From positions 1 through 47,324 of the forward strand of contig JAKFVB010000008.1 of the NCBI GenBank assembly GCA_021732405.1: DNA of 47,324 nt, read 5' to 3'. This DNA is from Methylotenera sp. GTDB lineage: Bacteria > Pseudomonadota > Gammaproteobacteria > Burkholderiales > Methylophilaceae. The notes beneath the pieces are model-generated. The model saw only the letters and a program-made list of their open reading frames with translations, was not told where the DNA came from and ran no database searches. The first letter of the stretch is position 1. Every line of letters starts with the position of its first letter. Positions 13,178 through 18,384 of the stretch are shown piece by piece. The translations under genes and the position numbers were made by a program.

Positions 13178-13912
13178 ATGTCTAATACCCGATTTTATAG
13201 CGCAGAAAAACTTTTCATTGGCGCACTAATCCCGTTATCAGCTAGCGCCGCCACTCATGCCACGCGTGCGTTACGCTTAAATATTGGCGATGAGTTGAAA
13301 CTATTTAACGGCGACTGCAATGACTATACTTGTGAATTAGTCAGTGTTAAAAAAAGTGAGGTGCTGGCCAAAGTATTAGCCAGCCAAGCCATTAGCAATG
13401 AATCACCCCTTAATATCACCTTGCTGCAAGGCATATCCAGCGGTGACCGCATGGATTACACCATTCAAAAAGCCGTAGAGCTAGGCGTAAATGCCATACA
13501 ACCCATTTCAACAGAACGTAGCGTTGTCAAACTCAGCCAAGAGCGCGCGCAAAAGCGGCTTGAGCATTGGCAAAATATCGTCAACTCTGCATGCGAGCAA
13601 TCAGGTCGCGCGTTTGTACCTCAAGTCCTAGCTCCCCTAGGCTTATCTCACTGGCTAGCAAAAAACCCTGCCAGCACGGATACACGTATCTTACTAAACC
13701 CTATTGGCGCAATAAAGCTGGCTGATTTGGCAAAACCAAAGGGCAACGTTACTTTATTGATTGGCGCAGAAGGTGGATTGAGCCAGGCAGAAATCAATGC
13801 CGCAACGGCAAATTGCTTTCAATCGATTATTTTGGGACCACGCATTTTACGCACAGAAACAGCTGCGCTAACGGCGATATCATCCATGCAAACACTGTGG
13901 GGTGATTTTTAA
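13178..13912 (+). CDS. rsmE: 16S rRNA (uracil-1498-N3)-methyltransferase
   Basis: SPOUT-class methyltransferase that modifies U1498 of 16S rRNA. It is 244 residues, normal length. The N-terminal PUA-like part includes ATHATRALRLNIGDELKLFNG (about 25-45). The C-terminal knot region shows LIGAEGGLSQAEI (about 194-206) and LGPRILRTETAALTA (about 223-237), which form the SAM site. It is immediately followed by the next gene (one base between stop and ATG), suggesting a two-gene operon. Confidence 0.95.
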   Translation: MSNTRFYSAEKLFIGALIPLSASAATHATRALRLNIGDELKLFNGDCNDYTCELVSVKKSEVLAKVLASQAISNESPLNITLLQGISSGDRMDYTIQKAVELGVNAIQPISTERSVVKLSQERAQKRLEHWQNIVNSACEQSGRAFVPQVLAPLGLSHWLAKNPASTDTRILLNPIGAIKLADLAKPKGNVTLLIGAEGGLSQAEINAATANCFQSIILGPRILRTETAALTAISSMQTLWGDF

Positions 13913-13913
13913 T

Positions 13914-15095
13914 ATGTGGTTTTATTTGGGGCTAGTGACCGTTTCAGTATCACTCATTATTTATCTATATCAAAAACTATCCATTCAATCGGCACTTCAA
14001 CAACGCAAAAGCTCACTCCACAATTGGACATATAATAAAAAGCCTTTTAAGTATGACTTAACCAATGCTAGCAGCAAAAATACGGGCTTATTTGTATTAG
14101 AGATTCCTTGTGTAAGCGCTTTGCAATTTTCTGCTAGACAAGAGCGCCGAAAAGATAAGTGGGCCAAACGACTGGGAGTCTCTTACGAGTTTGAAACGGG
14201 TTCGCAACAGTTCGATCAACAAACTTATCTTGCCAGCATCACCCAAGAAGATGCTGAAATTATTGGTAAAGATAGTGCCATGATGGCTGAAATACGTGGG
14301 CTAATCTTTTCAAAACAAGATGTTGATGTGATTACCAGACGAAATTTGATTATTTGTGACGGCAAACATTTGTATTTAGAAATACATTTTTTAAAAGATA
14401 GCCCTATTCAGCAAGTGAATGCTTTGGCCGCCCGTTTTTTACCTAGACTGCGAACGCTAGCCAACCTTTTGCAAAGCCAAAAGCGGGAAACAGCGCATTT
14501 CTGGAAAGTGCCCGCACAGCGCAACACTGCTATATTTTTAGCGATGAGCTTAGCCCTTGCGACTTGGGGCGGGTTAGAAGCGGCTCGCTTTTTTATCCTA
14601 GATAGAAATGCATTATTCTCACCAATCAGTTTAATGCCAGAGGCCAGCATCATCAGTGCTTTAGCTTTGCTCACTTTTATTTTATTGGCTTTTAGGTACA
14701 TTAAAAAATCGGCGCGCCGCCATCTAGTATTGATTGATATCGTAATATTTGGCGGGCTTGGATTACTCTTTACCGTTTACGGCTTGCTGTACGACTTTAA
14801 TAGTATGAGCGATAGTAGCGAACCCACAATTGCCAGTTACCAGGTATTAGACAAATACAGCGTAAAACATCGTGGGCGCAAAGGCAGGACCTATTACACA
14901 TACCACATTGAGTTAAAAGACGCGGAATACCCGATTGATTCATCTATGAAAATTGACCATGATTTTTACGATACCATCTATAAAACCGACTGGGTAAGCT
15001 TTACCATACGCGATGGTAGCCTTCACAAACCGTGGCTAGAAAATATGTATAAATGTCTTTTCTGCAAAGACTCACATCCACAAAGCGATTTTTAA
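13914..15095 (+). CDS. Unknown integral membrane protein
   Basis: Not recognised. About 393 residues from ATG 13914, one base after the rsmE stop; a GTG at 13902 would add four. One hydrophobic helix at the N-terminus (about 1-20), then a soluble region of about 180 residues rich in charged residues (lysine-rich RQERRKDKWAKR), then three hydrophobic segments (about 207-225, 243-262, 275-295), and a C-terminal soluble tail of about 90 residues with RGRKGRTYYTYHIEL, a pattern seen in the DUF3592-like extracytoplasmic domains. A CLFC pair lies near the end. Context gives no function. Confidence 0.7.
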   Translation: MWFYLGLVTVSVSLIIYLYQKLSIQSALQQRKSSLHNWTYNKKPFKYDLTNASSKNTGLFVLEIPCVSALQFSARQERRKDKWAKRLGVSYEFETGSQQFDQQTYLASITQEDAEIIGKDSAMMAEIRGLIFSKQDVDVITRRNLIICDGKHLYLEIHFLKDSPIQQVNALAARFLPRLRTLANLLQSQKRETAHFWKVPAQRNTAIFLAMSLALATWGGLEAARFFILDRNALFSPISLMPEASIISALALLTFILLAFRYIKKSARRHLVLIDIVIFGGLGLLFTVYGLLYDFNSMSDSSEPTIASYQVLDKYSVKHRGRKGRTYYTYHIELKDAEYPIDSSMKIDHDFYDTIYKTDWVSFTIRDGSLHKPWLENMYKCLFCKDSHPQSDF

Positions 15096-15097
15096 TA

Positions 15098-15126
15098 TTG
15101 TATTTTTTACATATTTAATATACTAT
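15098..15126 (+). promoter_or_regulatory. Candidate promoter of the HTH-argA gene
   Basis: TTGTAT (15098-15103) and TACTAT (15121-15126) are separated by 17 bp, compatible with a sigma70 promoter with both boxes imperfect. The start of transcription would fall near 15133, inside the inverted repeat at 15129-15143. Confidence 0.45.
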
Positions 15127-15128
15127 TT

Positions 15129-15143
15129 ATGTAATATTTACAT
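15129..15143. promoter_or_regulatory. Inverted repeat ATGTAA-N3-TTACAT, candidate operator
   Basis: Perfect six-base arms around TAT, 17 bp before the argA start codon and overlapping the predicted transcription start. A third TTACAT lies at 15107-15112. XRE-type regulators often bind GTAA/TTAC-type dyads, so autoregulation by the HTH of the encoded protein is a reasonable guess, not shown. Confidence 0.45.
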
Positions 15144-15160
15144 TTAAAAGCTTCTAAGTT

Positions 15161-16753
15161 ATGTCTTTAGGTCACTCAATCCGTCTACAGCGCAAATCAC
15201 AGAACCTCACTTTACAACAGCTTGCTACCAAAGTAGAGGCTGATGCAGGTAACCTGTCGCGCATAGAGCGTGGTGAACTAGGCGTTTCTGAAACATTGCT
15301 GCGCAAAATTGCTAACGCCCTAGAAACAACACCTGCACAAATTTATGCTTTAAGCGAATCCGGCACAACACTTAAAGCTGAAGAGCCTCATCAACCTTAT
15401 TTGGCTAGCCCAATCAGCATTCAAGCATCTGCTATTGATTTTGTTCAATGGTTTCGCTCCGCTACTCCTTATATACATGCATTTGGCGGGCGTACTTTTG
15501 TGATTGCCTTTGGTGGCGAGGTCGTCAGTGAGCAGCAATTTATTGCACTTTCACACGATTTAAATTTACTCGCCAGCTTAGAAGTAAGGTTAGTGTTGGT
15601 GCATGGCGCACGGCCTCAGATCGAGAAGCGTTTAAAACGCGATAAATTGACGCCAGCTTTTCATAATGGCTTACGCGTGACGGATGACGCAGCCATGGAA
15701 GCAGTAAAAGAAGCAAATGGCGCAGTGCGGGTAGAGATTGAAGCGCTGCTTTCAATGGGTATCGCCAACTCACCAATGGCAGGCGCCGATATTCGTGTAG
15801 CTAGCGGCAATTTTGTTACCGCTAAACCGCTTGGCGTGCGCGATGGTGTTGATTTGCAACATACAGGCGAGGTGCGTAAAGTGGATGCGATTGGTATTCA
15901 AAAACGCTTGGATGATAATGAATTAGTCTTGCTATCACCGCTTGGCTATTCACCTACAGGTGAGGCATTTAACTTAAGCTTGGAAGATGTCGCCGTTAGT
16001 GCAGCCATTGCGCTGGATGCCGATAAGCTGATTTTTTTAATGGACTCAGAAGGTGTACATAATTTGCGCGGCGATTTGTTGCGCGAAATGACGGCTGAAA
16101 AAGCCAAAAACTTACTGCGGAATGTGCAGAAAAACGAAACGCCTATCCACTTTTCTGAGGACGTTGACTACTACCTGCCTGCTGCCGTACGCGCCTGTGA
16201 ACAAGGCGTGGCACGCACGCATTTAATTTCGCGGCATATTGACGGTGCCATTATTCAAGAGTTATTTACGCACAGCGGCATTGGCACTATGGTCACAGAG
16301 CTGCCGCTAGAAACCATGCGCCAAGCTAATATCGACGATGTGGGCGGCATATTGAAACTGATTGAGCCACTTGAGAACGAAGGTGTTTTAGTGCGGCGTG
16401 GACGTGAGCGCATTGAAATGGAAATCAATCATTTTTATGTGATGGAACACGACAACCGCACCATTGGCTGCGCGGCTTTGCACCCTTTTACCTCAGAAAA
16501 ACAAGTAGAGTTTGCCTGTCTAGCGATTGACCCAGAGTATCGTGGTGGTGGACGTGGCGACAAGCTGTTTAACTACTGCCAACAACAAGCCAAAACTTTG
16601 GGTTTTAAACAGCTTTTTTGTTTAACCACACGTACCGAGCATTGGTTTTTAGAGCGTGGATTTAAAGCGGCTGATGTTGACAAACTACCGCAACTAAAAC
16701 AAGCGCTTTATAACTACCAACGTAAATCAAAAGTATTTATAAAACCACTTTAA
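15161..16753 (+). CDS. argA: N-acetylglutamate synthase with N-terminal XRE-type HTH domain
   Basis: Catalyses acetyl-CoA + glutamate to N-acetylglutamate, the committed step of arginine synthesis. Domains in order: XRE-type HTH (about residues 4-65; SIRLQRKSQNLTLQQLA, then NLSRIERGEL, then LLRKIANAL), a linker, an amino-acid-kinase domain (about 91-375; VIAFGGEVV, LVHGARPQIEKRL) that in the family binds arginine, and a GNAT domain (about 387-530; acetyl-CoA loop YRGGGRGDKL). Typical ArgA is about 440 residues and starts at the kinase domain; the extra 90 residues are the HTH. No internal ATG lies between codon 1 and the kinase domain, so the HTH is not a start-site artefact. argB lies 750 bp downstream. 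Confidence 0.92.
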   Translation: MSLGHSIRLQRKSQNLTLQQLATKVEADAGNLSRIERGELGVSETLLRKIANALETTPAQIYALSESGTTLKAEEPHQPYLASPISIQASAIDFVQWFRSATPYIHAFGGRTFVIAFGGEVVSEQQFIALSHDLNLLASLEVRLVLVHGARPQIEKRLKRDKLTPAFHNGLRVTDDAAMEAVKEANGAVRVEIEALLSMGIANSPMAGADIRVASGNFVTAKPLGVRDGVDLQHTGEVRKVDAIGIQKRLDDNELVLLSPLGYSPTGEAFNLSLEDVAVSAAIALDADKLIFLMDSEGVHNLRGDLLREMTAEKAKNLLRNVQKNETPIHFSEDVDYYLPAAVRACEQGVARTHLISRHIDGAIIQELFTHSGIGTMVTELPLETMRQANIDDVGGILKLIEPLENEGVLVRRGRERIEMEINHFYVMEHDNRTIGCAALHPFTSEKQVEFACLAIDPEYRGGGRGDKLFNYCQQQAKTLGFKQLFCLTTRTEHWFLERGFKAADVDKLPQLKQALYNYQRKSKVFIKPL

Positions 16754-16762
16754 AATCTGAAA

Positions 16763-17410
16763 TTATTTTTTGATAAATAGACCCAATATTTGGTAATCAA
16801 AAAAGCTTCGAAAATAGTTAAAGGTGACTAAATTAATTAATTTGTAGATGGCGTTAATTTGCGGACGAAAAAAATATGAGTTCTGCCATTTCAACAAACT
16901 CAACCCTGATCTAACGGCCCAGCGTTCAAGACGTTTATGAGTCATCACTTGAATATGAGTTTCATCAAATATACCTGTTGGCTGTTCTGGCCAGTCTCCT
17001 TTTAATAATAGTGTATATAGAATCCTTAATTGCCGCATATTTGGCACACTAATTAAAATCCAGCCACCTTGCTTTACCATCTTTGCGAACTGTTCAAGTC
17101 TATTCCAAGCTAAAGGCATGTGTTCTATAACATCGGCTAAAATCAGACCATCCAAACTATTTTCTGCAAATGGCATCAGTACATCCCCATTCACTAGGCG
17201 GGCAGATGTAATGCGTTCCTTTGCAACACCAACCGCTTCTGCAGAAATATCTACACCATGCACTTCACGACCAGCAGCAACTAAAACCTGTTCTGTACTC
17301 GCTCGTCCGCAACCAATAGAGCCTATTATAAAACCAGTTTTTGGCACCAAGCTTAATATATCAAACCGCACTTGGTCAGAATAAATATAATTATTATCGG
17401 TGTTTATCAT
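16763..17410 (-). CDS. Class I SAM-dependent methyltransferase
   Basis: 215-residue Methyltransf_11-like protein. Motif I is IGSIGCGRAS (about residues 31-40), with the acidic end of strand 2 in VHGVDIS (about 52-58) and motif IV in LILADVIEHMP. The pattern IFDETHIQVMTHKRLERW resembles methyltransferases of lipid or surface-polysaccharide modification, but the substrate is unknown. The C-terminal 40 residues are aromatic and hydrophobic and may touch the membrane. It is convergent with argA (nine bases between stops) and divergent from argB, interrupting the two arginine genes on the opposite strand. Confidence 0.82.
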   Translation of the reverse strand: MINTDNNYIYSDQVRFDILSLVPKTGFIIGSIGCGRASTEQVLVAAGREVHGVDISAEAVGVAKERITSARLVNGDVLMPFAENSLDGLILADVIEHMPLAWNRLEQFAKMVKQGGWILISVPNMRQLRILYTLLLKGDWPEQPTGIFDETHIQVMTHKRLERWAVRSGLSLLKWQNSYFFRPQINAIYKLINLVTFNYFRSFFDYQILGLFIKK

Positions 17411-17466
17411 GGTTTTTCACCTTAATACTGAGTTGATCATTACTCAATCATATCAAATCAAGCTAA

Positions 17467-18384
<918 letters not shown>

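Follow-up and report, generated by a model that had tools for sequence, protein, structure and literature searches.

The window, a 47,324-nucleotide stretch of Methylotenera sp. DNA, encodes an N-acetylglutamate synthase (NAGS, ArgA) fused to an N-terminal XRE-type DNA-binding head. This fusion, hereafter HTH-ArgA, is real and Methylophilaceae-wide, and its promoter carries a pair of palindromes, putative operators, that is conserved at argA and hardly anywhere else. We consider it likely that the Methylophilaceae ArgA is a trigger enzyme whose XRE head would bind two operators in its own promoter and shut off argA transcription. A literature search (titles and abstract openings, few subscription journals covered) found no description of an HTH-ArgA.

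Architecture, conservation and spread of HTH-ArgA

An earlier note, made from the letters of this DNA, had read a helix-turn-helix domain in the same frame as the kinase and GNAT domains, and profile searches bear it out. Pfam places HTH_31 at residues 3–61 (E 9.6e-09) and HTH_3 at residues 7–59 (E 2.3e-07), both above cut-off, followed by AA_kinase at residues 112–357 (E 1.8e-28) and by GNAT (Table 1). The enzyme part has the features of a classical (bacteria-like) NAGS: an AAK domain precedes the GNAT domain, a single N-terminal helix opens the AAK domain, and the curated ArgA models score far above their cut-offs, with 690 bits over residues 90–530 for the NCBIfam equivalog NF003641 (cut-off 344) and 581 for TIGR01890 (cut-off 202.85). 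It also carries ELFTHSGIGT, which fits E-(L/I)-(F/M)-(T/S)-x-x-G-x-G-T, given as the arginine-binding motif of NAGS in the accessible part of PMC4490483; E367, L368, F369, T370, G373, G375 and T376 are invariant across 33 sequences. The head itself matches the Cro/C1 profiles and has the five-helix fold of XRE domains in the predicted structure. An enzyme part and a DNA-binding part thus lie in one polypeptide, as in a trigger enzyme.

The same note had seen no internal ATG from which a normal ArgA could be made, and codon 1 is indeed the sole in-frame ATG among codons 1–110. Other potential starts in this range are TTG at codons 46 and 81, CTG at codons 32 and 47 and some ATT; on sequence alone, a start at TTG-81 would be possible. 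In the examined argA loci the start codon coincides with residue 1 or lies no more than 3 codons away, the exception (L081) being 12 codons upstream.

Table 1. Features of the argA region, in positions of the window
Feature	Positions	Strand	Basis or remark
Likely argA promoter (TTGTAT 15098-15103, 17-bp spacer, TACTAT 15121-15126)	15098..15126	+	Sequence and anchored alignment
Putative operator 1, core TGTATTTTTTACA	15099..15111	.	At the -35 position
Putative operator 2, core TGTAATATTTACA	15130..15142	.	Begins 3 bp behind -10; 31 bp from operator 1
HTH-ArgA (N-acetylglutamate synthase with N-terminal XRE head)	15161..16753	+	530-aa ORF, ATG start
Cro/C1-type HTH, residues 3-64	15167..15352	+	Pfam; AlphaFold, five helices predicted; Foldseek
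Recognition helix region DAGNLSRIERG, residues 28-38	15242..15274	+	Most conserved part of the head
Variable linker, residues 65-90	15353..15430	+	Mostly predicted disordered
N-terminal helix of the kinase-like domain, residues 91-108	15431..15484	+	AlphaFold model
Arginine-binding motif ELFTHSGIGT, residues 367-376	16259..16288	+	Sequence, motif match
GNAT acetyltransferase domain, residues 416-502	16406..16666	+	Pfam
argB (acetylglutamate kinase)	17500..18384	+	Beyond an opposite-strand methyltransferase gene

Of the neighboring genes, the methyltransferase gene between argA and argB (16763–17410, minus strand; Methyltransf_11, weak MetW match) has its start facing that of argB. Upstream, a 397-residue ORF with no Pfam match (13902–15095, plus strand) stops 3 bases short of operator 1. 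Many relatives instead have, directly upstream of argA, a sequence that ends in an LWGDF tail, as does the ORF at 13178–13912 of the window; we take this LWGDF-tailed sequence to be RsmE-like.

The head, whose spread the earlier note had been unable to judge, is family-wide and, among the matches listed, was not seen outside Methylophilaceae. Counting the window's own genome (2.27 Mb, 89% complete), 150 Methylophilaceae genomes were searched and 147 gave an ArgA match; two weak matches (G064, G134) were set aside, and the head is present in 144 of the remaining 145 genomes with an argA-level match. By hand count, the alignment begins at residue 1–7 in 137 of these, including two in which the argA gene is in two pieces (G071, G101). 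Five streamlined g16 genomes (L148, L150–L153) align from residue 88–89 with the head visible in the DNA, and it was likewise read from the DNA in G092 and in G033, where a run of N splits the frame. The sole genome in which no head was seen, G119, holds a fragment covering residues 363–530 only. Outside the family, among the matches listed, ArgA alignments begin at residue 60 or later in 399 genomes of the order and at residue 65 or later in 369 genomes of the class, a comparison that could miss a very diverged head. The best 80 of 115 relatives in named genomes all align from residue 1–3; they include Methylotenera, Methylophilus, Methylobacillus, Methylovorus, Novimethylophilus and Candidatus Methylopumilus, and the nearest, with 94% identity, comes from a Methylotenera MAG.

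As judged from substitution patterns, the head is kept by purifying selection. The median dN of a region over the dS of the gene, across 41 pairs, is 0.060 for the head and 0.000 for residues 28–38, compared with 0.157 for the linker, 0.012 for AAK and 0.026 for GNAT. The mean frequency of the commonest residue follows the same order (head 0.74, linker 0.25, AAK 0.90, GNAT 0.83), so that head conservation lies below that of the catalytic domains. The head has also been retained in genomes of 1.3 Mb.

AlphaFold predicts the five head helices at a pLDDT of about 90, drops below 50 at residues 69–90, and opens the kinase-like domain with helix 91–108, to which the linker ties the head in the model. 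In Foldseek searches, the head alone retrieved ClgR, DdrO, SinR bound to DNA, P22 c2 and 434 Cro (E 9e-05 to 4e-03). With the full model, the top match by E-value was Neisseria NAGS without arginine (2r8v), followed by the arginine-bound form (3d2p), which was the best aligned (TM 0.72/0.89). Aligned to the 434 repressor, head residues 29, 30 and 34 match what we take to be its base-contacting glutamines.

Paired palindromes at the argA promoter

The region 15096–15160 ahead of argA, which the earlier note had picked out for gel shifts, holds two conserved palindromes. The likely promoter around them matches 7 of 12 consensus bases in the window and was not listed by the promoter scan, since this falls below the scan threshold. 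In relatives, two AT-rich palindromes of about 17 bp, of the TTTGYA-N5-TRCAAA type, flank a -10-like hexamer. To quantify this arrangement we compared 110 upstream regions, comprising the window, 89 loci with identical proteins removed and 20 diverged family members; L037, being too short, is omitted from the counts of 109. Because these sequences are related, the counts are not independent events.

At least one exact TGYRN5YRCA lies within 110 bp upstream of argA in 83 of 109 regions (dinucleotide shuffles: mean 3.8, maximum 8), and two or more in 54 of 109 (mean 0.12, maximum 1). A looser score finds a pair spaced 29–32 or 40–43 bp in 98 of 110 (shuffles: mean 10.2, maximum 20); with the spacing left free, 31 of 45 show a distance of 30 bp. 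The streamlined lineages have 41–42 bp. Such spacings amount to about three helical turns, or four in the streamlined lineages, placing both sites on one face of the DNA. Where the spacing is 30 bp (63 sequences), the position of a -10-like hexamer does not vary (mean 4.65/6 matches): operator 1 contains a weak -35-like hexamer (3.22/6) 17 bp ahead of it, and operator 2 begins 2 bp behind it. In the 11 sequences whose sites are 31 bp apart, the -10 matches less well (3.91).

By comparison, TGYRN5YRCA was found within 150 bp of none of 20 headless argA genes from other families; in a wider stretch of headless genes, L118 has a single hit at -199 and L133 one within the gene. Conserved palindromes in the gene's own promoter, absent from the sampled headless argA, are what an autoregulatory trigger enzyme would be expected to have. 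A chance origin of the palindromes was rejected on the strength of the shuffles and the sister genes. An attenuator or RNA hairpin was set aside as well, because operator 1, at -35 and outside the likely mRNA, has the same symmetry.

The motif by itself is not rare. Over the whole window the degenerate core pattern occurs 26 times, against 29.1 in shuffles, so that location and pairing are what count. In a systematic scan of the AT-rich upstream regions, exact half-site palindromes exceed the shuffles at several spacers, most clearly at spacer 5 with TGTA; a 4-base palindrome of any kind at that spacer is seen in 84 of 89 sequences (shuffles 58.5).

An exact palindrome is missing in 26 of 109 regions, including nine of Methylophilus and five of the streamlined g16 lineage. 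The former (L053, L054, L056, L058, L070, L072, L076, L077 and L028, i.e., Methylophilus and near kin) keep TTTGCA half-sites about 30 bp apart with decayed partner halves, which suggests an altered operator. The latter (L139, L141, L146, L147 and L149) have recognition helices altered to NTSS/NISS or SVSN/SASN, and their exact palindromes are gone; L146, L147 and L149 have TTTTGCATAA and TTTGCAAAAA boxes in common, which resemble the Methylophilus half-sites, and Methylophilus also has Ser30.

Across the set, head and operator vary together. Gln40 goes with TGCR..YGCA-type half-sites in 23 of 24 sequences, and Leu40 or Ile40 with TGTA..TACA in 67 of 80; the few Ile40 sequences, mainly Methylophilus, lean to the C-type like Gln40 (mean C-type half-site: Ile40 0.72, Gln40 0.81, Leu40 0.16). 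Similarly, an exact palindrome accompanies Gly30 in 80 of 92 sequences versus Ser30 in 3 of 17. For operator type, no column of the whole alignment is more informative than residue 40 (0.58 of 0.92 bits); the next, at 0.51, lies in the linker, a sign that lineage contributes. On a tree of the ArgA part, each covariation offers 2 well-supported independent pairs (sign test p 0.5), so shared ancestry could explain both.

The specificity of the sites was assessed in 100 whole Methylophilaceae genomes. The strict tandem pattern, TGTAN5TACA-N14-32-TGTAN5TACA, was found in 21 of them, at one place each, with 79 lacking the strict form; in 20 of the 21 that place is the argA promoter, the exception being G096:C11:12241, and the reversed control was found in 1 of 100. 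Single strict sites do not share this specificity: TTGTAN5TACAA occurs at 27 places in 8 genomes versus 38 for its reversed control, and TTTGTAN5TACAAA at 36 places in 32 of the 100 genomes, not above the reversed control. An arginine regulon defined by strict single-site patterns was accordingly rejected.

Inspection of 35 of these 36 places gave 30 sites with a locus, of which 21 lie inside a mechanically found ORF and 9 between ORFs; four of the 9 are at argA (L227, L228, L239, L241), and L240, counted inside an ORF, is in fact the argA promoter. Of the five further sites, those of L245, L246 and L249 are inside ORFs and those of L247 and L248 near a gene in two g15 genomes. We take the gene of L245 and L246 to be metW-like, and that of L249, L224 and L242 to be PIN/PhoH-like. 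The strict TTTGTAN5TACAAA at 1501–1517 of L247 and 554–570 of L248 is kept about 200 bp upstream of a presumably cold-shock-like gene, by chance or as a second target. No arg gene besides argA was found at the inspected strict single sites.

Probable autoregulation by the head and its alternatives

The observations above fit a model in which ArgA acts as a single-target repressor of its own gene, probably with arginine as co-repressor. Its parts differ in strength. That the ArgA head binds the two palindromic operators is very likely. Repression upon binding is almost equally so: operator 1 covers the -35 and operator 2 starts 2–3 bp behind the -10, and both would stand in the way of transcription. 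We lean, with less assurance, towards arginine promoting the binding. The AAK domains would form a hexamer as in Neisseria NAGS, with pairs of heads hanging from the N-terminal helices; such a hexamer would carry three head pairs, and two of these could occupy the two operators. At high arginine, ArgA would be inhibited and argA repressed through the same site. According to the accessible part of PMC4490483, arginine binding shifts the N-terminal helix of Neisseria NAGS. The chances seem to us about even that one arginine site in a hexameric ArgA yields both allosteric inhibition and transcriptional repression, filling the place of ArgR at the committed step; and they are no better or worse for the rest of that reading, in which arginine moves the head-bearing N-terminal helices and the design converges on that of ArgR, a hexamer on paired palindromes.

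The head might also bind with another outcome: it could activate argA, repress it at low arginine, or answer glutamate, acetyl-CoA or N-acetylglutamate. We regard such a response, which is not exclusive of autorepression, as unlikely. There is a precedent in PutA, which acts as a repressor when its substrate is lacking (PMC8249747, as far as its accessible text goes), but sites at the -35 and behind the -10 fit occlusion of RNA polymerase, and arginine is the known allosteric ligand of the fold (PMC4490483, accessible part).

It is less probable still that a free-standing regulator binds the palindromes while the ArgA head does something else, e.g., holds the hexamer together or contacts another protein. 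The DNA alone cannot name the protein that binds it, and the covariation of head and operator is not phylogenetically significant. Yet the palindromes accompany headed ArgA and were seen at 0 of 20 headless sister argA genes; since the strict tandem is also nearly unique to this promoter, argA would have to be all but the sole target of any unlinked regulator. In the window's genome (89% complete), the next-best match to the head is distant, with 36% identity over 42 residues (E 0.03), and ArgR was not found in the sampled genomes of the family and the order.

For ArgR we searched with PF01316. It exceeded the cut-off in 0 of 100 Methylophilaceae genomes, with sub-threshold hits in 2, and in 0 of 120 genomes of the order (a few Methylophilaceae among them), with one sub-threshold hit; among control genomes it did so in 8 of 14. 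It is also absent from the Pfam hits of HTH-ArgA itself. The loss of ArgR in genomes with the fusion, which the earlier note had proposed as a check, thus holds for the sampled family, but ArgR is equally missing in the sampled order, which makes its absence a background of the fusion and not its mark. A regulon survey of Proteobacteria describes ArgR as highly conserved in many gammaproteobacteria and absent in other classes (PMC5343134, in its accessible part).

From the missing ArgR, and from an enzyme family that senses arginine (PMC4490483, accessible part), one might go further and let the fusion regulate the entire arginine pathway in its place. We think this very unlikely: no comparable sites stand at the sampled argB, argC and argF, and strict single sites elsewhere are mostly within ORFs, with none seen at other arg genes. 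A PWM built from 71 sites of the argA set gave a median of 21.1 bits upstream of argA (lower quartile 10.3, minimum 0.6), scores that are not independent because the matrix derives from that set; upstream of argB (66 loci) the median was -6.75 and the maximum 7.7, and upstream of argC and argF (8 genomes each) the maximum was 5.5, at the argF of the window's own genome. The argB upstream region of the window (17411–17499), the other region that the earlier note had proposed for binding, contains no TGYRN5YRCA site. The promoters of argD, argG, argH, argJ and carA were covered by the genome-wide patterns only. Of the note's proposal that the first enzyme of the pathway also acts as its regulator, what stands is that ArgA looks like a transcription regulator; the pathway-wide role is not supported.

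Lastly, the two TTG codons notwithstanding, we give almost no credence to the HTH being a relic or a start-codon artefact with a shorter ArgA as the real product, given the conserved start, the low dN of the recognition helix, the intact predicted fold and a head kept in 1.3-Mb genomes.

If autorepression by HTH-ArgA is true, bacteria without a detected ArgR would obtain transcriptional feedback at the committed step of arginine synthesis through a head placed on the arginine sensor. HTH-ArgA would then offer a simple system, with one protein, one promoter and one ligand, for studying how allostery is wired to DNA binding. For the engineering of methylotrophs, feedback-resistant argA mutants might also lose or alter repression.

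HTH-ArgA among known systems

Like the classical NAGS of N. gonorrhoeae (2r8v/3d2p), HTH-ArgA has an AAK domain, a GNAT domain, the arginine motif and a single N-terminal helix. The Neisseria chain, however, aligns from residue 92, whereas HTH-ArgA adds an XRE domain and a linker before this helix. H-NAGS, in which ArgH is joined to a NAT domain (PMC4490483, accessible part), is likewise a fusion at the first step of arginine synthesis, but it joins two enzymes, and HTH-ArgA an enzyme and a DNA-binding domain.

The ArgR of E. coli binds as an arginine-bound hexamer to two 18-bp imperfect palindromes overlapping the -35 (PMC6245113, accessible part), and the proposed HTH-ArgA complex would similarly be a hexamer on two promoter palindromes. 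ArgR differs in not being an enzyme and in having many targets, whereas for HTH-ArgA, an enzyme, one target was found. The ARG boxes are 3 bp apart; the cores of the HTH-ArgA sites start about 30 bp apart.

Among trigger enzymes, i.e., metabolic enzymes that also act in transcription control, as proposed for HTH-ArgA, NadR is presumably the nearest in build, with a head that we take to be of the XRE type. The trigger enzymes of E. coli include BirA, NadR, PutA, PepA and PyrH, and PutA is single-target, controlling its own gene (PMC8249747, accessible part). All five differ from HTH-ArgA in enzyme and pathway. Trigger enzymes are thus known as a class, to which HTH-ArgA would add a new enzyme.
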